DNA of 64,000 nt from Bacteroidota bacterium (lineage in GTDB: Bacteria; Bacteroidota; Bacteroidia; CAIKAF01): positions 62,001-126,000 of the forward strand of contig VGMT01000001.1 of NCBI GenBank assembly GCA_016866335.1, in the 5' to 3' direction. How positions within the stretch are numbered: position 1 is the first letter of the stretch; every line of letters begins with the position of its first letter. Below are positions 2,370 to 62,854 of the stretch, one piece after another. Under the pieces are notes generated by a model. It was given only the letters and a program-made list of their open reading frames with translations. It ran no database searches and was not told the origin of the DNA. The position numbers were made by a program, and so were the translations under genes.

Positions 2370-2936
2370 CTACTTCTTTATTGCTTCTACTCGAATGGAG
2401 TACCGAATTTTCAATCGGTATTCTTGTTGAGAATTATCGGTTACGGTAACCATACGGGTATCAAACCTTGTAATAAATGTGTCCTTAAGCCAAGGTTGAA
2501 TATCGCCATAATTTACGGAGAGCGCTTCAACTTTTCCGCGGTTGGGTAAGTCGTTACCAAAACCACCAGCACCGCCTGTTGGATTGTGCTTGTAAGCAGC
2601 AAGAAGCTGTTTGCCGGGTTCAGACCGCGACACGAAGAATATCTCATACTTTTTAAAGGGCCACAGCGTTGTGTCGGGGCTTAGCATTTCAACAAAAGCG
2701 CTGTCCATGCTTACTTTGTCGATATTATCGAAAGTCATGCCTTCAGTAAGGAGATAATCTCGTAGGTATTGCATATCGACCGTATCGACATTTACCATAA
2801 ACTCATTGTTCTTGTAGTTTCCTGGAATGACGATTTCATTTTCAAAAGGGACAACAATTTGATAACGATCAGGACCACAAGCTACAATGGCAGAGCCTAG
2901 AAACGAAAGAAATAAGAGTGTCTTTAAATTTCCCAT
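2370..2936 (-). CDS. predicted lipoprotein, 188 aa, unknown function
   Basis: Signal sequence MGNLKTLLFLSFLGSAIVACG with a lipobox ending at Cys20 predicts a lipoprotein. The mature part shows no domain I recognise. It contains a YEIFF stretch, a glycine-rich loop TGGAGGFGN near 122 and a lysine-rich tail. It lies 23 nt after fabI and is the last gene before the terminator at 2317. It also has its own well-formed promoter: TTG, 19 nt, TACTTTTG, then 4 nt to the ATG, so it may be transcribed both with the upstream genes and alone from a leaderless mRNA. GldD/GldH-like gliding lipoproteins were considered, but no signature could be confirmed by eye. Confidence 0.75.
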   Translation of the reverse strand: MGNLKTLLFLSFLGSAIVACGPDRYQIVVPFENEIVIPGNYKNNEFMVNVDTVDMQYLRDYLLTEGMTFDNIDKVSMDSAFVEMLSPDTTLWPFKKYEIFFVSRSEPGKQLLAAYKHNPTGGAGGFGNDLPNRGKVEALSVNYGDIQPWLKDTFITRFDTRMVTVTDNSQQEYRLKIRYSIRVEAIKK

Positions 2937-2940
2937 ATTA

Positions 2941-2970
2941 CAAAAGTACGATTTCTATTTCAAGATGCAA
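2941..2970 (-). promoter_or_regulatory. promoter directly upstream of lipoprotein gene (leaderless type)
   Basis: Minus strand: TTG at 2970-2968, 19-nt spacer, TACTTTTG at 2948-2941, then only 4 nt to the ATG at 2936. Both elements and the spacing fit the Bacteroidota sigma-70 consensus. Confidence 0.7.
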
Positions 2971-3769
2971 ATTTTTCCATCATATCGGCAGAAATTCCAG
3001 TGGAGCTAAAGCCTCCGTCGTGAAACAGATTTTGCATGGTAACCATTCGGGTGAAATCTGAAAACAGGCTTATGCAGTAATTGGCGCAATCTTCGGCAGA
3101 GGCATTACCGAGCGGAGACATTTTATCGGCATAGTCAAAAAAGGAATCAAAGCCCCCTACTCCACTGCCAGCGGTGGTTTTGGTTGGAGATTGAGAGATG
3201 GTATTTACGCGGACCTTATTTTTCTTTCCGTAGTGGTACCCGAAACCTCTGGCGATGCTTTCTAAAACAGCTTTAGCATCAGCCATATCACCATAATCGG
3301 GGAAGGTGCGTTGAGCAGCAATGTAGCTAAGGCCTACAACGCTACCCCATTCTTTGATGGCGTCTTTTTGATAAGCCACCTGAAGCATACGGTGAAAAGA
3401 AAGGGCTGAGATATCAAGGCTTTTTTGATACCAATCGTAATTAAGGTTGGTGTATTGGCGGCCTTTTCTAACATTGGGCGACATCCCAATGGAATGTAGA
3501 ACAAAATCAATTTGACCACCGGCAAAGGCCATAGTTTCATCAAAAAGTTTTTCAACGTCTTCTTGAGACGTTGCATCGGCGCCAATAACGGGAGCCTTGC
3601 ATTGTTCTGCCAAATTGTGAATTGTTCCCATGCGCAGGGCGACGGGTGCATTTGAAAGAACGATTTTGGCCCCTTGTTCAACCGCTTTAACGGCGACCTT
3701 CCAAGCGATCGAATTTTCATCTAAGGCTCCAGTTATAATTCCGGTTTTTCCGGTTAAAATTCCATTCAT
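2960..3769 (-). CDS. fabI: enoyl-[acyl-carrier-protein] reductase (NADH)
   Basis: Catalyses the last step of each fatty-acid elongation cycle, reducing enoyl-ACP with NADH in the cytoplasm. Seen: N-terminal Rossmann segment GIITGALDENSIAW (the FabI version of the glycine motif), HSIGMSPN, and the catalytic Tyr-(X6)-Lys as Y-GDMADA-K near 165-172, followed by VRVNTISQSP. The length of 269 aa fits FabI of this phylum. The frame extends upstream to a TTG at 3805, but the ATG at 3769 gives the normal N-terminus and avoids overlap with recN. It sits 32 nt after recN in the run from bamD. Confidence 0.95.
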   Translation of the reverse strand: MNGILTGKTGIITGALDENSIAWKVAVKAVEQGAKIVLSNAPVALRMGTIHNLAEQCKAPVIGADATSQEDVEKLFDETMAFAGGQIDFVLHSIGMSPNVRKGRQYTNLNYDWYQKSLDISALSFHRMLQVAYQKDAIKEWGSVVGLSYIAAQRTFPDYGDMADAKAVLESIARGFGYHYGKKNKVRVNTISQSPTKTTAGSGVGGFDSFFDYADKMSPLGNASAEDCANYCISLFSDFTRMVTMQNLFHDGGFSSTGISADMMEKFAS

Positions 3770-13565: not shown

Positions 13566-13588
13566 GCATTGACAAAACGATTATATAA

Positions 13589-13737
13589 GGGCGGCAGCCG
13601 GGCTTTCACGGGTTGTCCGCGGTGCCTGCCGGGCCGAGTATGGCCCAAAAGTAGCTCCTAAAGTCGCTCTTTTGAGCCATACCCGGCAGCCGGCAGGCCC
13701 CTTGCGGGCAACTCCGCTCAATCCCTGCCGCGGGCCG
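13589..13737 (+). repeat. structured intergenic repeat, copy A
   Basis: Copy A of a family of about 150 bp found seven times in the window. It starts GGGCGGC with GGGCTTTCAC nearby, has the core GTAGCTCCTAAAGTCGCTC at about 13651-13669, and ends with CTCAATCCCTGCCGCGGGC. The core is flanked by pairing arms: CAAAA/TTTTG, GTATGGC/GCCATAC and GCCTGCCGG/CCGGCAGGC. Outer helices are GCGGC/GCCGC and GTTGTCCGC/GCGGGCAAC (one G-T). It begins 24 bp after the trxA terminator, in the same orientation. Confidence 0.85.
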
Positions 13738-15155: not shown

Positions 15156-15307
15156 CGCCGCCCGCGGCAGGGATTGAACAAGGTTGCCCGCAAAGCGTGT
15201 GCCGGCTGCCGGGTTGAGCCAAAAAGAGCGACTTTAGGAGCTACTTTTGGGCCAAATCCGGCCCGGCAAGCGCCGCGGACTACCTGTGAAAGCCCGCCCG
15301 CCGCCCC
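15156..15307 (-). repeat. structured intergenic repeat, copy B
   Basis: Minus-strand copy. Read on that strand: GGGGCGGCGGGCGGGCTTTCACAGG at the left end, core GTAGCTCCTAAAGTCGCTC, right end TTGTTCAATCCCTGCCGCGGGCGGC. Its left and core parts closely match copy A, and the arms pair less perfectly than in other copies. It begins 23 nt after the lpxB stop on the same strand and fills the gap between two convergent genes. Confidence 0.85.
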
Positions 15308-15330
15308 TTTAAAAATACTGACTTTTACTT

Positions 15331-17523: not shown

Positions 17524-17553
17524 TGTTTTTTATAGGAATTTTAGGTTTTTTGA

Positions 17554-17703
17554 GGGCGGCCATTCCGGTTATCGCCTGTACCTTGCTTGGGGCGGGGCGG
17601 GGCCACTGCCGGCCCAAGGTGGCTCCCAAGGTCGCCCCTTGGGCCGGGCGGCCCCTGCCCCGCCCCTGCGCTCGGTGCCGGCTCTACCCGGGCCGCGGGC
17701 GGC
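17554..17703 (+). repeat. structured intergenic repeat, copy C (degenerate ends)
   Basis: Keeps GGGCGGC at the left and CCGCGGGCGGC at the right. The core GTGGCTCCCAAGGTCGCCC is flanked by perfect arms CCGGCCCAAG (17609-17618) and CTTGGGCCGG (17638-17647) and an outer GC-rich pair. It lacks both the GGGCTTTCACC segment on the left and TTCAATCCC on the right, the two strands predicted to face each other in the other copies. It is the only copy not placed 3' of a gene on its own strand; it lies between divergent starts and follows a T run (TTTTTTGAGGGCGG). Confidence 0.82.
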
Positions 17704-29982: not shown

Positions 29983-30113
29983 TTCGAAAACAACTATTTC
30001 GTGGGCCTTTAACCCCTGACTCCCGCATTTTAACACCCAGGCCCAAATTTATACATAGTAAATTCATGTCTTGCAGAAGGGATTATGATAAAACTCGGAA
30101 GTATGTAGCTATC

Positions 30114-30510
30114 CGCGTCTAGGTTTTTAGCCACGAATGCACGAATGGTTGTGGCTATGTGGGTACCCACTCATGCAGGAATATACGGGGCTATGCTTTT
30201 TACGTCTAGGTTTTTAGCCACGAATGCACGAATGGTTGTGGCTGTGCCTTTAGCCTCCCATGAAGGAATATATGGGGCTAGGCTTTTTGCAGCTAGGTTT
30301 TTAGCCACGAATGCACGAATGGTTGTGGCTGTGGCTTTAGCCTCCCATGAAGGAATATATGGGGCTAGGCTTTTTGCAGCTAGGTTTTTAGCCACGAATG
30401 CACGAATGGTTGTGGCTGTGGCTTTAGCCTCCCATAAAAGAATATACGGGGCTAGGTTTTTGCGGCTAGGTTTTTAGCCACGAATGCACGAATGGTTGTG
30501 GCTGTGTGGG
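30114..30510. repeat. 87-bp tandem repeat, about 4.5 copies
   Basis: The marker TAGGTTTTTAGCC occurs at 30120, 30207, 30294, 30381 and 30467, so the period is 87, 87, 87 and 86 bp. Each unit contains AGCCACGAATGCACGAATGG and a variable half with GGAATATAYGGGGCTAG. Units 3 and 4 are nearly identical; the outer units are more diverged. Short inverted ends AGCCAC/GTGGCT in every unit could form small hairpins. Confidence 0.92.
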
Positions 30511-30525
30511 TCGCCCCAAAAACAT

Positions 30526-30632
30526 ACCATTCGTGCATTCGTGGCTACCCTAATTACGCATTTCTAATAACCACCGATTATGAATACCACGCCAATCTCG
30601 CCCGAAAACATACCATTCGTGCATTCGTGGCT
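30526..30632. repeat. two inverted copies of the tandem-repeat core
   Basis: ACCATTCGTGCATTCGTGGC (plus one T) at 30526-30546 and again at 30612-30632, each preceded by AAAACAT. They are the exact reverse complement of the 21-bp core found in all five direct units. The nearest direct unit and the first inverted copy could form a 21-bp stem with a loop of about 35 nt. Confidence 0.9.
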
Positions 30633-30914
30633 AAGCAATCTGCGGCTCAGCTTCCTTTCGCCAATGGCGCGGATTCGTTCTTAAATGAACCGAAACTCTT
30701 TACAACTTGTATTTACCACTGCTCTAACCTCCAACTTAAACATTAGTGCTGCCATTCGGCATTTTTAGCTTCCTTACAAACAAAGACCAATGGCATTTTT
30801 TTTCAAAATTTTCACCCAAGTCCAAATTTATTCTCTTTATAATCGAGAGTTACAGAAGGGCTTCTGAAAAACGCGGATGTCAAGCTTGAACCATTGTCCA
30901 ACCTTGGACTTCCT

Positions 30915-35771: not shown

Positions 35772-35817
35772 ATGTCTGGCCCTGTAGGCATTCTGGTTCA
35801 GGTTATTTGTTTTTTTA

Positions 35818-35968
35818 GGGGCGGCTGCGGGCTTTCACCGATAATCCGCGGCTGCCGGCCAGCTGCCCAGCGGGCTTACGGTGGCTCCTAAAGTCGCCTC
35901 CGCGCCACGCGGGCAGCAAGCCGGCAACCTACCGGGCTATCCAGTTCAATCCCTGCCGCAGGCGGCGT
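35818..35968 (+). repeat. structured intergenic repeat, copy D
   Basis: Begins GGGGCGGCTGCGGGCTTTCA after a T run, core GTGGCTCCTAAAGTCGCCT, right end GTTCAATCCCTGCCGCAGGC. Arms: TGCCGGC/GCCGGCA and GCTGCCC/GGGCAGC pair perfectly. The inner helix GATAATCCG/CGGGCTATC differs from copy E (GGTAG/CTACC) with compensating changes. It starts 46 nt after the tRNA terminator in the same orientation. The 200 bp that follow to glnN hold no gene. Confidence 0.88.
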
Positions 35969-39616: not shown

Positions 39617-41563
39617 ATGAGAAATTACCTTTTTCTAACCACCGCTTTCCTTGCAACACTCTTTGCCCTTGCAGGAATTAAAACATCAAAAGAACGCCTG
39701 CCCCTTTCAGGCATTGTTTTCAGCACTAAAGCTAGCCCTCGATTTGCCGACCAAGCCCATATTTTCACCCTGTACCGAAACGATAGCCTCGTTTATGGCG
39801 CAGAACGCCTGCCCGGAGACACCCTCTGGATCAATTTAAACCCAGGCATTTACCGCCTCGATATCCAAAGCGCGGGAATGCAGTCCTTTGGTCGCTGGTA
39901 CTTAACGGTAGACAGCAACCCTCAATTGTATGCCCTCGATTTAAAACCCGGCTTCTTTGCCCAAACCCAACCCAGCCTACCCCCTCAATTCAACCACGAA
40001 TATGACTCCCGAAAACTCAGCACTGCCACTATCGAATCCAAGCCTTCGGGCAAATACAAAAGGGAAGCCAGCCTCTCGGTTGCCTACGATGCCATACCCA
40101 TGGCGGCCGAATCTGAAATGATGGATTCGCGCAGTGGGTCGGTTCTCACAGACCGTTCACGCCCCATTGCCCCAGGAGCAGGAACGCTGACTGCCGGCGA
40201 GGTAAATGATTTTTTACAATGGAGTTTTTGGGGAAAAAGCGCCTTGCCTACCCTTTTGTCGGGAGGCAAGTCTTGGAACCTTTTCCCCCGTTTCCGCACG
40301 GCTGTTTATGTACAAGGCAGCGATGGGCAGCCCCTTGCCAACGTTCCAGTTGACTTGATTGGCCCTTCAGGAAGTTTAATGTGGAGCGCCCTTACCGACA
40401 ACCAAGGCCATGCCGAATTGTGGGCACATCTGTTCCGCGATTCTGCTCAAGTAAAAGGAAAATGGACCGTTGTGGCAGGAAAGCCCGGAACCCAAACCCG
40501 CCGTAGCTTCGATGCCCCCGCCGAAGGTTGGAGAACCCGGCAATTGGAACTGAACCTGACCCTGCCTTGCAAAAACTCAAACCAGGTTGACATTGCTTTT
40601 GTTGTGGACGCAACCGGGTCCATGGGCGACGAACTAAACTACCTGAAATCAGAACTCGACGACGTTATTCAAAAAGCCATTGCCCGCAACTCAAGCCTAG
40701 AATTTAGAACCGCTGCTGTGGTGTACCGCGACCATGGCGATGAGTATGTAACACGCTTTCAAGACTTTGAAAAAGGCTCCGCCGCCCGTTCTTTCCTTAG
40801 TGCTCAAGCTGCAGGCGGAGGCGGCGATTTTCCCGAAGCCGTTGACGAGGCCCTTGAAGTAGCCCTTCGCAGACTGAGTTGGAGCCCCGAAGCTCGCACT
40901 CGAATCCTGTTTATTGCCTTAGACGCTCCCCCGCACCAAGATGAATTGGTAAAAATCCGCATGCAAACCCTTACGGCCGAAGCCGCCGCCAGAGGCATTC
41001 GCATCGTTACCTTGGCTTGCAGCGGTATGGATGCCAGCGCCGAATACCTGATGCGGTCCATAGCCTTGGCCACCAACGGCACCTACACCAGCTTAACCGA
41101 CGACAGCAAGGTGGGCGGCAGCCACCGCGCACCCGTCGCCGCTTCGCTCAACGTGCAAAAGCTGAATGCCCTATTGGCCGACATTCTTTACCGATTTACC
41201 TGGATGCCCGATTGCAGCAAACCTGAAAACCCCAGCATCGATAGCAACCAAGTTCGCTACGTTGAAAAATGGTTCGAGCAACTGCAAGATCAGCCCGGCA
41301 ACAGCAACCCCGACGGCATACGGCTTACGGTATTCCCAAATCCCACCACCGGGCCATTTCAATTGCGCTTAGATGGGGGAAATCTGCAAGGCAGCAGCTT
41401 GTATCTGCTCGACCTGGGCGGTCGGGTGGTGCAAACCTGGAACATCGAGCGCGGCAGCGATTTCCGCCCCGACATCAGCCACTTGCCCTCTGGAATGTAC
41501 TATTTGGCGCTGTTCAAAAACGATTTCAGAAAAATTGAACGCATCATATTGCAAAAAAGATAG
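39617..41563 (+). CDS. secreted VWA-domain protein with T9SS sorting domain, 648 aa
   Basis: N-terminal export signal (about 1-20). Residues about 30-110 look like a carboxypeptidase-regulatory-like/Ig domain; a second similar domain lies near 228-315 (AVYVQGSDGQPLANVPVDLIG). A von Willebrand factor A domain follows (about 322-535) with the MIDAS motif D331-A-T-G-S and a second acidic part GGGGDFPEAVDEAL. The tail from about 565 (LTVFPNPTTGPFQLRL ... GMYYLALF) is a type A T9SS signal. Predicted surface adhesion or metal-dependent binding protein; ligand unknown. Monocistronic; repeat copy E starts 7 nt after the stop. Confidence 0.88.
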   Translation: MRNYLFLTTAFLATLFALAGIKTSKERLPLSGIVFSTKASPRFADQAHIFTLYRNDSLVYGAERLPGDTLWINLNPGIYRLDIQSAGMQSFGRWYLTVDSNPQLYALDLKPGFFAQTQPSLPPQFNHEYDSRKLSTATIESKPSGKYKREASLSVAYDAIPMAAESEMMDSRSGSVLTDRSRPIAPGAGTLTAGEVNDFLQWSFWGKSALPTLLSGGKSWNLFPRFRTAVYVQGSDGQPLANVPVDLIGPSGSLMWSALTDNQGHAELWAHLFRDSAQVKGKWTVVAGKPGTQTRRSFDAPAEGWRTRQLELNLTLPCKNSNQVDIAFVVDATGSMGDELNYLKSELDDVIQKAIARNSSLEFRTAAVVYRDHGDEYVTRFQDFEKGSAARSFLSAQAAGGGGDFPEAVDEALEVALRRLSWSPEARTRILFIALDAPPHQDELVKIRMQTLTAEAAARGIRIVTLACSGMDASAEYLMRSIALATNGTYTSLTDDSKVGGSHRAPVAASLNVQKLNALLADILYRFTWMPDCSKPENPSIDSNQVRYVEKWFEQLQDQPGNSNPDGIRLTVFPNPTTGPFQLRLDGGNLQGSSLYLLDLGGRVVQTWNIERGSDFRPDISHLPSGMYYLALFKNDFRKIERIILQKR

Positions 41564-41570
41564 GTTTTTT

Positions 41571-41721
41571 GGGGGGCGGTTGCCGGGCTTTCTCCGGTAG
41601 TCCGCAGTCCTGGGGCTTGCGTGCAGCGGCCAGGCAGGGGCTCCCAAGGTCGCCCTGCCTGTTTCGCGCACGCAGGCCCCAGCCCTTTTCGGGCTACCCG
41701 GTTCAATCCCTACCGCAGGCC
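41571..41721 (+). repeat. structured intergenic repeat, copy E (best-formed)
   Basis: Helices read directly: outer GCGGT 41576-41580 with ACCGC 41712-41716; middle GGTAGTCCG 41596-41604 with CGGGCTACC 41690-41698 (one G-T); long hairpin CTGGGGC 41610-41616 with GCCCCAG 41676-41682, GCGTGC 41619-41624 with GCACGC 41668-41673, CAGGCAG 41631-41637 with CTGCCTG 41655-41661, closing the core GGGCTCCCAAGGTCGCC. The outer T-A pair replaces C-G of other copies. Starts 7 nt after the VWA gene stop. Confidence 0.9.
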
Positions 41722-44875: not shown

Positions 44876-45050
44876 GAGGCTATAACCCCAAGGCCTTTAA
44901 AATGTTTAGAATTTAATCATAAATAGATTGAAAAATAGATAAATACGTTCAAAGCTCACATTAAAAAACATCAAATTGGGCCGCATTCATTCCAATGATA
45001 GAAGCGGTCATTGGCCGGCCAAACAAATCCAGCAGAGGTTTAATGAACGA
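44876..45050. other. intergenic stretch between LON gene and repeat copy F
   Basis: AT-rich upstream half likely holds the LON gene promoter. No gene, tRNA or strong hairpin seen. The GC skew of the given strand changes sign around here. Confidence 0.4.
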
Positions 45051-45195
45051 GAGCGGCAGGGATAGAGCTAGGCTAGCCCACAGGGGCGTGGCCGTGCTGG
45101 CGCGAGGCTGAGGGAGCGACCTTGGGAGCTACCCGAAGGCCGCTGCCAGCAAGACCAGGCCCCGAGGACTAGCAGCGATAGCCCGCAGCCGCCCT
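45051..45195 (-). repeat. structured intergenic repeat, copy F
   Basis: Minus-strand copy: left end AGGGCGGCTGCGGGC overlaps the TAG stop of the gene at 45194-46381; core GTAGCTCCCAAGGTCGCTC; right end GCTCTATCCCTGCCGC. Helices: GCTAGTCC/GGGCTAGC (one G-T), TGCTGGC/GCCAGCA, and GGGGC/GCCCC. The changed bases in GCTAG/CTAGC compensate each other relative to GGTAG/CTACC of copy E. Confidence 0.87.
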
Positions 45196-46381
45196 ACTCC
45201 AACCCATCAACCCAGCTCTGCAAATAGGCATACTTGGGCATAAGCTTTCCATTTTGAGCAATGGTCGCCTGTTCAAAAACAAGGGCATGTGGCTGACTTT
45301 CAAACTCTTGAAGCAAAGGAAGCAGTTCAGAGCCGAAATGCGTGGAGGCATCGGCCGGCAAAGCGGCAGGCAGGTTATCGACCGCCATAACAGCGATGGC
45401 CGAGGGCGAAAGAAAATCTGTTTCTTGAAAGGAAATTTTGTCCCAGCCGTAGACCGGATCCTTGAGCGTGGAAGCCCGAAGGGTGCAAGGCAAAGGCCCG
45501 TTGATATCGCAGCTAATGTCGCCAACCACCTGAACCTGCGTTTTGCTGAGCTGTTCAGCACTTAAAAATCGGGGAGAAATGGAAGACCAAAAATGCCCTG
45601 TCATTAGAATTTGAGCGTTGGAAACGAAAGGCAGAAAATGAGCCTTGTACAGCTGGGGCTCAGAAAAAAATTCAGCCGCATCGAAGCCTTCGTCTTGAAT
45701 ACGAACATTGTATTGGTCGTAATCGATGTTTTTGTACCAACGCCCTGTTTCAGGGAAAGGCAGATTGGCATCGATTTCTTTAAAATTCAATTGCCTTAAA
45801 ACAGAAAGGGCTCCTTGAGCCACACGGCCTTGGCCGGTAAGCAAAATGCGAACATCGGCCACCTTCCAATCTGAAAGCGCAAGATTCATTTGATGGCGGC
45901 TATTTAAATCGGCCGTATGCGGCAAGGGTTGCTGAAGGGTTTTTTGGGAAAAGGTGCGCAGGGTATTGTAGGCCCCTACCACCCCTGCATAATAACCAAA
46001 ACCAATAAGACGCTGGCCATGTGAATCGCGTAGGCATTCGTAATCAATCAACCGAATGTTGCGTTGCAAGACCTCTTGCAGCATTTTAAGGTTGTGGGAT
46101 TGGCGCTTAATGGTGTGCGAAAAAAAGAAGTAGGTTGAATTGGGAACAAGATCGTCGGGGGGCACCTCCTTAATCCCAAGGTAAACCTGGGCGGTTCGGC
46201 TTTCGTCAATCTCAATACCTTGTTCTTGAAAAAGAGCATCAGAAAAGCAACGGTGGGCGGAAGGTTCAGCCCAAATGGAGATGTTGGAATTGCTTTGGGC
46301 GAATGCAAGGGCTTGCTCAGGGTTTAAAGCACATCGAAAATCTGGCGGGGATTTGCGTTCGCGAATCAGACAATAAATCAT
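45194..46381 (-). CDS. alanine dehydrogenase/PNT- and saccharopine dehydrogenase (LYS1)-like NAD(P)-dependent enzyme, 395 aa
   Basis: N-terminal AlaDh/PNT-type domain: MIYCLIRERKSPPDFRCAL (RERKxPPDxRVxL motif), VYLGIKEVPPDDLVPNSTYFFFSHTIKRQ near 77-105 and LIDYECLRDSHGQRLIGFGYYAG near 120-142, which closely follows the fungal LYS1/saccharopine dehydrogenase pattern. The Rossmann part has VADVRILLTGQGRVAQGAL near 175 and VVGDISCDINGPLPC near 295. The substrate is not certain; lysine-forming saccharopine dehydrogenase or a related amino-acid dehydrogenase are candidates. The ATG at 46381 is chosen over the longer open frame; a TATTTTTG box ends 4 nt upstream. Confidence 0.82.
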   Translation of the reverse strand: MIYCLIRERKSPPDFRCALNPEQALAFAQSNSNISIWAEPSAHRCFSDALFQEQGIEIDESRTAQVYLGIKEVPPDDLVPNSTYFFFSHTIKRQSHNLKMLQEVLQRNIRLIDYECLRDSHGQRLIGFGYYAGVVGAYNTLRTFSQKTLQQPLPHTADLNSRHQMNLALSDWKVADVRILLTGQGRVAQGALSVLRQLNFKEIDANLPFPETGRWYKNIDYDQYNVRIQDEGFDAAEFFSEPQLYKAHFLPFVSNAQILMTGHFWSSISPRFLSAEQLSKTQVQVVGDISCDINGPLPCTLRASTLKDPVYGWDKISFQETDFLSPSAIAVMAVDNLPAALPADASTHFGSELLPLLQEFESQPHALVFEQATIAQNGKLMPKYAYLQSWVDGLE

Positions 46382-46385
46382 GCTG

Positions 46386-46393
46386 CAAAAATA
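46386..46393 (-). promoter_or_regulatory. -7 box 4 nt before the AlaDh/LYS1-like gene
   Basis: Minus strand TATTTTTG, then CAGC, then ATG at 46381. No -33 TTG at the expected spacing. Confidence 0.45.
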
Positions 46394-46551
46394 GGCCAAA
46401 GGGGGAAAGGAAAGCGAGAAAACAGAAAAAGAAAGAACGGATTTGGGATTGAAAGAGGCTAAGTTTAACGTATTTAAACAGTTCGCACAGGTGGGTATGC
46501 AACCTAGACCATAGACATTTCGTTTAAGAAGACGGAACAACAAAAAAAAGG

Positions 46552-47412
46552 ATGAGGCAATTAAAAATAACCAAACAGGTAACCAACCGTGAAGATGCGT
46601 CGTTGGACAAATACTTAACCGAAATAAGCAAGGAAAACATGATTGCGATGGAAGAAGAGGTTGAGTTGGCACGAAGGATAAAAGCAGGAGACAGCGAGGC
46701 ACTTAAACGGTTGGTAAGTGCAAATTTGCGGTTTGTGGTTTCGGTGGCCAAGCAGTATCAAAATCAGGGAATGGCTTTGCCAGATTTGATTAACGAGGGG
46801 AATTTGGGATTAATCAAAGCAGCTCAGCGGTTTGATGAAACGCGGGGGTTTAAGTTTATATCGTATGCTGTTTGGTGGATTCGGCAATCGATTTTGGCAT
46901 CGTTGGCTGAGAATGCCCGACTGGTTCGTTTGCCCTCGAATCGGATTGGTTCTGCCCAAAGGGCATTTCGGGTTGCGGGCGAATTGGAGCAATTGTATGG
47001 TCGTGAGCCATCGATCGATGAATTGGCCGATGCTATGAACATGACAGCGAAAGATGTGATTGAAGCTATGAATGCGTCTTCGCGCCACCATTCGGTTGAT
47101 GCGCCTATGCAAGAGGGAGAAGACGGTAGTTTTTTGGATATGTATCCCGATTTCAATGTAGCCAGGCCAGACAAAGCTTTGATTGACGGTGGATTGAAAC
47201 TTGAATTGAGTCAGGGTTTAGATGCCTTGAACGAGCGGGAGCGCGAAATCATTGAAATGTATTTTGGATTAAGGGGGGCGCACCCGATGAATTTAGAAGA
47301 AATCAGCTACAGGTTAAATTTAACCCGAGAGCGTGTTCGGCAATTAAAGGAATACGGTATTCGGCGAATTAAACAAAGTTCTAATTTGGCCGCTCTGCGA
47401 AGCTATTTGTAA
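46552..47412 (+). CDS. rpoD: primary RNA polymerase sigma factor RpoD/SigA (short Bacteroidota type)
   Basis: Directs RNA polymerase to the TAnnTTTG promoters noted across the window. Region 1.2 at about 14-45 (ASLDKYLTEISKENMIAMEEE), region 2 with NLRFVVSVAKQYQNQGMALPDL near 58-80 and FISYAVWWIRQSI near 102-114 (2.3-2.4), region 3 near 135-205, and region 4 with a helix-turn-helix NLEEISYRLNLTRERVRQLKEYGIRRIK near 245-272. 286 aa with no region 1.1, as usual for the phylum's housekeeping sigma. Rpe follows after 20 nt. Confidence 0.94.
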   Translation: MRQLKITKQVTNREDASLDKYLTEISKENMIAMEEEVELARRIKAGDSEALKRLVSANLRFVVSVAKQYQNQGMALPDLINEGNLGLIKAAQRFDETRGFKFISYAVWWIRQSILASLAENARLVRLPSNRIGSAQRAFRVAGELEQLYGREPSIDELADAMNMTAKDVIEAMNASSRHHSVDAPMQEGEDGSFLDMYPDFNVARPDKALIDGGLKLELSQGLDALNEREREIIEMYFGLRGAHPMNLEEISYRLNLTRERVRQLKEYGIRRIKQSSNLAALRSYL

Positions 47413-62686: not shown

Positions 62687-62838
62687 GCCGCCCGCGGGCG
62701 GGATTGAACCAGGGTAGCTCGGCAAGGGCGAAGTGCCAGGCTCCGCGCGCCGCGGAGGCGACTTCAGGAGCCACCGCAAGGCCGCTGGACCTGCCACTGA
62801 GCATTGCCGACTACCGGTGAAAGCCCGATAACCCGCCC
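62687..62838 (-). repeat. structured intergenic repeat, copy G
   Basis: Minus-strand copy: left end GGGCGGGTTATCGGGCTTTCACC, core GTGGCTCCTGAAGTCGCCT, right end GGTTCAATCCCGCCCGCGG. Outer helix GGCGGG/CCCGCC replaces GCGGC/GCCGC of other copies with matched changes; inner helix GGTAGTCGGCAA pairs with TTGCCGAGCTACC over 12 bp with one bulge. Starts 16 nt after the infB stop on the same strand, between convergent genes. Confidence 0.87.
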
Positions 62839-62854
62839 ATAAAATCAGGAAAAA

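Follow-up and report, generated by a model that had tools for sequence, protein, structure and literature searches.

A long imperfect-palindrome repeat at gene 3' ends in a Flavobacteriales genome, with pairing apparently maintained at the DNA level

Copies of the repeat in the window and the anatomy of the fold

The window, a stretch of 64 kb, comes from the genome of an uncultured aquatic member of the Flavobacteriales (G000; 2.45 Mb in 62 contigs). At 41571-41721 on the plus strand it contains a full-length copy of a repeated element, scoring 131.1 bits (E 1.4e-27) against R1, a covariance model built from 51 element copies. The left end of this copy lies 8 nt past the TAG stop of the gene at 39617-41563 (+), whose product is a 648-residue VWA/T9SS-tail protein (Pfam), and orthologous copies are found at the same place in three other genomes (G001, G003 and G004). 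The R1 search finds seven copies in the window, the others being at 13586-13736 (+; 114.7 bits), 15159-15309 (-; 120.6 bits), 17551-17701 (+; degenerate, 55.8 bits), 35816-35964 (+; 152.1 bits), 45048-45197 (-; 120.5 bits) and 62689-62841 (-; 129.9 bits). Those at 35816-35964 and 62689-62841 have orthologous copies in G001 and G003, while the copy at 45048-45197 has them in G001, G003 and G004, where it is cut by a contig end; the first bases of this last copy supply the TAG stop of the gene at 45194-46702 (-).

We note that the copies at 13586-13736 (+) and 15159-15309 (-) form an unusually similar inverted pair, resembling a composite element, and that the gene between them encodes a protein of 270 residues with a T9SS sorting domain or tail (Pfam). 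The window also holds a separate REP-like array at 30106-30634, made of five direct tandem units of ~87 bp containing TTAGCCACGAATGCACGAATGGT; after these, the same 22-23-mer occurs twice more in inverted orientation.

The element is a GC-rich imperfect palindrome of ~150 bp that folds as one unbranched stem. A profile of 67 copies places its left boundary, on the plus strand, at a T-run (-11 to -4) followed by GGGCGG, and its right boundary at CCGC and RGGC followed by A-rich sequence. From the base upwards, the stem consists of an outer helix, a GGG/CCC segment, a C-T mismatch, a 2-bp step, a TC/TC internal loop, a middle helix containing a T-G pair, a long variable stem and an apical hairpin. 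In the copy at 41571-41721, the left half of the outer helix is at 41576-41580 (GCGGC/GCCGC, GCGGT/ACCGC or GCGGG/CCCGC across copies). It is followed at approximately 41585-41592 by the left side of the basal motif, GGG-C-TT-TC, which stands opposite TC-AA-T-CCC, and at approximately 41595-41605 by the left half of the middle helix, GTAG-T-CC/GG-G-CTAC, in which the T-G pair is almost invariant (49 of 51 copies). The apical hairpin, at approximately 41638-41657, reads GGC-TC-C(YNNR)G-TC-GCC, and its terminal loop is conserved too, being either TCCTAAAGTC or TCCCAAGGTC. The mismatches stay fixed even though the helices turn over: of 105 copies whose two sides could both be recognised, 101 carry the basal module CTTTC/TCAAT. 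The opposite strand reads the TC/TC loops as GA/GA, a motif that stacks well in both RNA and DNA.

The predicted fold is very stable, and the two strands cannot be separated by folding stability: in three genomes, their mean minimum free energies are -85.2 and -85.0, -89.8 and -89.3, and -86.9 and -85.0 kcal/mol. An earlier note on this DNA had described nested helices with apical arms. The outer and middle helices that it quoted are present in the copies, and the helices in general are real, but they belong to a single long stem and not to separate hairpins. The note had also drawn CTTTCAC and TTCAAT as unpaired sequences facing each other; the facing TC/TC mismatch is indeed there, but the inner TT pairs with AA. 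This 2-bp step, inside what was supposed to be a loop, is paired and covaries across genomes, being TT/AA here and TA/TA, TG/CA, CA/TG or CT/AG elsewhere (a set extracted automatically, with non-element hairpins set aside by eye); a minority of copies (TC/CA, TT/TA) are not fully paired at the step.

Covariation and distribution of the element

In the alignment of 51 copies, 93.3% of the cells in paired columns are complementary, against 75.7% after shuffling and 42-46% when the partners are slid. Cells with a double change number 338, compared with 100.5 in shuffles, none of 500 shuffles reaching as high a count, and 31 of the 43 pairs have changed on both sides. The covariation score is 0.415, compared with 0.116 for shuffled alignments and 0.04-0.10 with partners slid. 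Since kinship among sequences can inflate such scores, a tree-based null was also used, in which substitutions inferred for each branch of a FastTree tree were replayed at random columns (an R-scape-type procedure, in our own implementation). Under this null, 18 of the 43 pairs are significant at E<0.05, and many of the remaining pairs barely vary. Beyond the pairs of the stated structure, only 42-118 and 37-123 reach significance, and both fit the same helix. Among the significant pairs are 11-150 in the outer helix (CG in 28 copies, UA in 12 and GC in 5) and 71-86, which closes the apical hairpin (GC in 44 and AU in 7). The claim that the helices change in step is fully borne out, under the tree-based null as well as in other genomes and in place at orthologous loci; covariation goes beyond phylogeny, which is what the note had proposed to check with R-scape, and the switch of the core closing pair between AGC/GCT and GGC/GCC corresponds to pair 71-86. 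The fold of the element is real, old and general.

A BLAST search with 41571-41721 against its own genome gave 40 places among the matches listed, and the R1 search of the same genome gave at least 150 copies, at about 120-163 bits. There are 48 non-redundant copies in 498 kb of G000, or about one per 10 kb, which extrapolates to a total of ~250 in the whole genome. R1 also finds divergent versions in two more species of the genus (G002 and G005), and weaker matches in other genera and families (G014, G055 and G056). The exact left core is present in only 21 of 395 genomes of the class, and therefore the distribution is patchy. A short version of ~60-100 nt occurs at 1-10 copies per genome in many Bacteroidota; in G056 the short-armed relatives have 72-84 nt between the core ends, and several copies there have near-perfect inverted arms whose sequence differs from copy to copy. 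Collections of phages and plasmids gave no match to the element.

It is worth adding that a short relative is also found in a contig labelled as a Planctomycetaceae MAG (L162, 919-1010), by transfer or mis-binning. Contig C1 of G000 moreover carries a divergent subfamily (L081, 1005-1152; L080, 4095-4244), also kept in G001, in which the outer helices are swapped (GGGCGCC..CCCG / CGGGGGCGC) and the basal and apical modules are largely retained.

Placement, persistence and comparison with known systems

Most copies in G000 (43 of 48) lie outside open reading frames, although by a simple ORF caller these cover 91% of the sequence. A stop codon is found within 40 nt of the left end in 21 cases and of the right end in 7 (p = 0.013), and the corresponding counts in G001 are 14 and 5. 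The closest pairs of copies are all in the order plus then minus (6 of 6), an arrangement that would follow from convergent genes each carrying an element of their own. Of 74 scored copies, 12 lie between divergent genes.

The history of individual copies was followed by mapping their flanks between species, with counts limited to sites where both flanks map. All copies are shared between G000 and G001 (9 of 9) and between G003 and G004 (8 of 8), and no recent insertion was seen in these 9 + 8 close comparisons. Between G003 and G000, where flank identity is ~76%, 7 of 9 are shared. The element itself can be aligned well even in places where the neighbouring spacer cannot. Two sites lack the element in G000 and G001, but are too diverged for ends or a target duplication to be read. 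In sister species, substitutions fall mostly at unpaired positions, and double changes in place are isolated single pairs. Compensated double changes between orthologues number 210 against 60 simulated, with the structure taken from one orthologue only; the count of 210 spans both directions and several species pairs, so that the events are not independent. In the more diverged pairs, some of the differences between species may reflect replacement by another copy.

No match to the window was obtained in Rfam at the gathering score; the element itself gives only weak chance hits to microRNA and snoRNA families, and its short relative is likewise without a match. No described Bacteroidota repeat of this kind was found in the open-access literature. 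An intrinsic terminator was considered and rejected: the T-run precedes the hairpin and A-rich sequence follows it, so that neither strand has the layout of one.

One close parallel is with ERIC elements (the 127-bp IRU of enterobacteria), which are dispersed, intergenic and multicopy and form one long stem-loop (PMC2267715, PMC2229807), as the element does. It differs from ERIC in belonging to another phylum and having another sequence, in combining a fixed core with covarying but otherwise unrelated arms, in having relatives in several families, and in being placed right after stop codons. As to the TA ends and target-site duplication of the ERIC type, the ends of the element read T-run/GGGCGG and CCGC-RGGC, and its element-free sites are too diverged for a duplication to be made out. 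REP, BIME and REPIN sequences are also high-copy intergenic palindromes, often near stop codons. However, they are 20-40 nt long where the element has ~150, and the conserved unpaired GTAG/CGTC foot of REPs is missing: here GTAG forms part of a helix, where GTTG can take its place (AU in 31 copies, UA in 12). A REP/RAYT system was also rejected, as its own genome has no Y1 transposase and most of the RAYTs of its relatives carry other REPs. PF01797 (Y1/RAYT) had no match in G000, G001, G009 or G014.

Correia/NEMIS, RUP and other bacterial MITEs are similar in being about 100-155 bp long, foldable and noncoding, but no cognate transposase was found for the element, and its element-free sites are too diverged to reveal target duplications. 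The attC sites of integron cassettes lie just after stop codons, and they share with the element a structure conserved more than its sequence, variable terminal arms and fixed mismatches. The element differs in having no cassette arrays and, in the profile of 67 copies, no RYYYAAC/GTTRRRY boxes at its ends, where GGGCGG and CCGC are found instead.

Pairing in DNA or RNA, and possible functions

RNA stems tolerate G-U and not A-C mismatches, and this is what is seen in eleven tRNAs from the same genomes (20 G-U, 0 A-C). The element behaves differently: with the fixed T-G pair excluded it has 30 G-T and 42 A-C mismatches, and single changes at orthologous loci give 50 G-T and 52 A-C; compared with simulation, each class of mismatch there is depleted to a similar extent. 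A position-resolved count based on the fold is less clean, with 74 G-T and 43 A-C outside the fixed T-G region, an excess that stems largely from one or two positions; this is the main reservation on strand symmetry. The symmetry of G-T and A-C, which is absent from tRNAs, together with the equal folding of the two strands, points to pairing that is kept at the DNA level by a constraint or a repair process, and the functional RNA implied by the earlier note finds no support in these counts. The symmetry is evidence against a fold of one RNA strand and for maintenance on DNA, which could be through selection for an extruded hairpin, template switching in replication, or both.

Our preferred reading, which is favoured over each alternative but stays short of an even chance, is that the element belongs to an ancient, amplified family of long imperfect-palindrome repeats whose ability to form hairpins has been maintained at the DNA level, with a role at the ends of transcription units. 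In kind, such a family may be comparable to ERIC or BIME elements. Supercoiling or a single-stranded state of the DNA near the 3' ends of genes would let a hairpin or cruciform extrude, and a structure-specific protein could recognise the C-T mismatch, the 2-bp step, the TC/TC loop, the T-G pair and the TC/TC tip. The function might be to absorb supercoils or to insulate neighbouring genes, a role already suggested for BIMEs. Complementarity of the arms is probably sustained in part by template switching inside the palindrome, and the repeat probably spread through some machinery as a mobile element that would now be mostly immobile. A bolder version is less probable: that this is an undescribed class of DNA hairpin, patchy in Bacteroidota, in which a fixed mismatch core and freely evolving arms are selected at gene 3' ends through a putative protein reader.

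After the DNA-level hairpin, we rank a hairpin in the 3' untranslated region of mRNA, then a relic MITE shaped by template switching, and last a recombination site. An RNA-level role remains a serious rival, if a less probable one. The top strand would form the tail of the mRNA from the gene upstream, and the hairpin would stabilise or destabilise this mRNA or slow the ribosomes that reach its stop codon. Such an element would likewise show left ends near stop codons and a sense bias at the ends of genes; the closely spaced inverted pairs are consistent with one copy for each convergent gene, the T-G pair is almost invariant on the top strand, and the fold is very stable. There are also precedents, which keep this role a serious one: ERIC in Yersinia affects mRNA stability (PMC2229807), and in E. 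coli translation is influenced by REPs lying no more than 15 nt from a stop codon (PMC12306157). Weighing the other way are the lack of preference for G-U over A-C that sets the element apart from tRNAs, the equal stability of the strands, the copies between divergent genes (12 of 74 scored) and the absence of an Rfam family.

It is unlikely that the element is simply an old, non-functional MITE in which one arm is rewritten from the other by replication template switching, which makes selection on the fold unnecessary. Hairpins are known to arise and to be maintained through template switching (PMC8794818), and such an origin would suit both the equal rarity of the mismatch types and the arms in G056 that are near-perfect yet unrelated between copies. 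Switching would, however, erase the mismatched modules and the T-G pair, which are kept in nearly all copies and across several families, and so template switching alone is insufficient. Nor does such a relic sit well with copies that persist at orthologous sites and outlast the neighbouring spacer, or with substitutions that concentrate at unpaired positions and sister-species double changes confined to isolated single pairs. Least probable is a site for recombination or transposition that is read as a folded single strand, in the manner of attC or IS200/IS605, with the base of the stem as recognition core and arms of free length. The core with its variable terminal structure, the short-armed relatives in G056, the position just past stop codons as in cassette attC, and the left boundary of a T-run then GGGCGG would all be compatible with such a site. 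Against it, the ends lack attC boxes, the copies are dispersed and not arrayed, Y1 transposase is absent from G000 and G001 while the RAYTs of relatives carry other REPs, and the 9 + 8 close comparisons contain no recent insertion.

Strong covariation is usually taken as proof of a functional RNA, and this element covaries clearly without a general preference for G-U; it therefore offers a natural test of covariation arising from DNA hairpins or template switching. It also provides some 250 positionally conserved, sense-biased elements per genome, and a core motif with which to search for its putative binding protein and its origin.

Some observations on Y1-type genes in other genomes may be added. 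RAYT-type Y1 genes at L120, L121, L123 and L124 (in G002, G005, G056 and G003) sit in short-palindrome arrays of their own, with the palindromes AGCTCCGTAGGAGCG, GACCCCGATGGGGTC and AACCCCGTAGGGGTG. At L264, upstream of a Y1 gene at 2828-3394, and at L262, another palindrome (AGAGACGCACAATNGTGCGTCTCT) seems to break up one of the copies. At L261 (3478-3627, G003) a full copy lies ~150 bp upstream of a Y1-type gene of 210 codons, a proximity that may be due to chance, given one copy per 10 kb.
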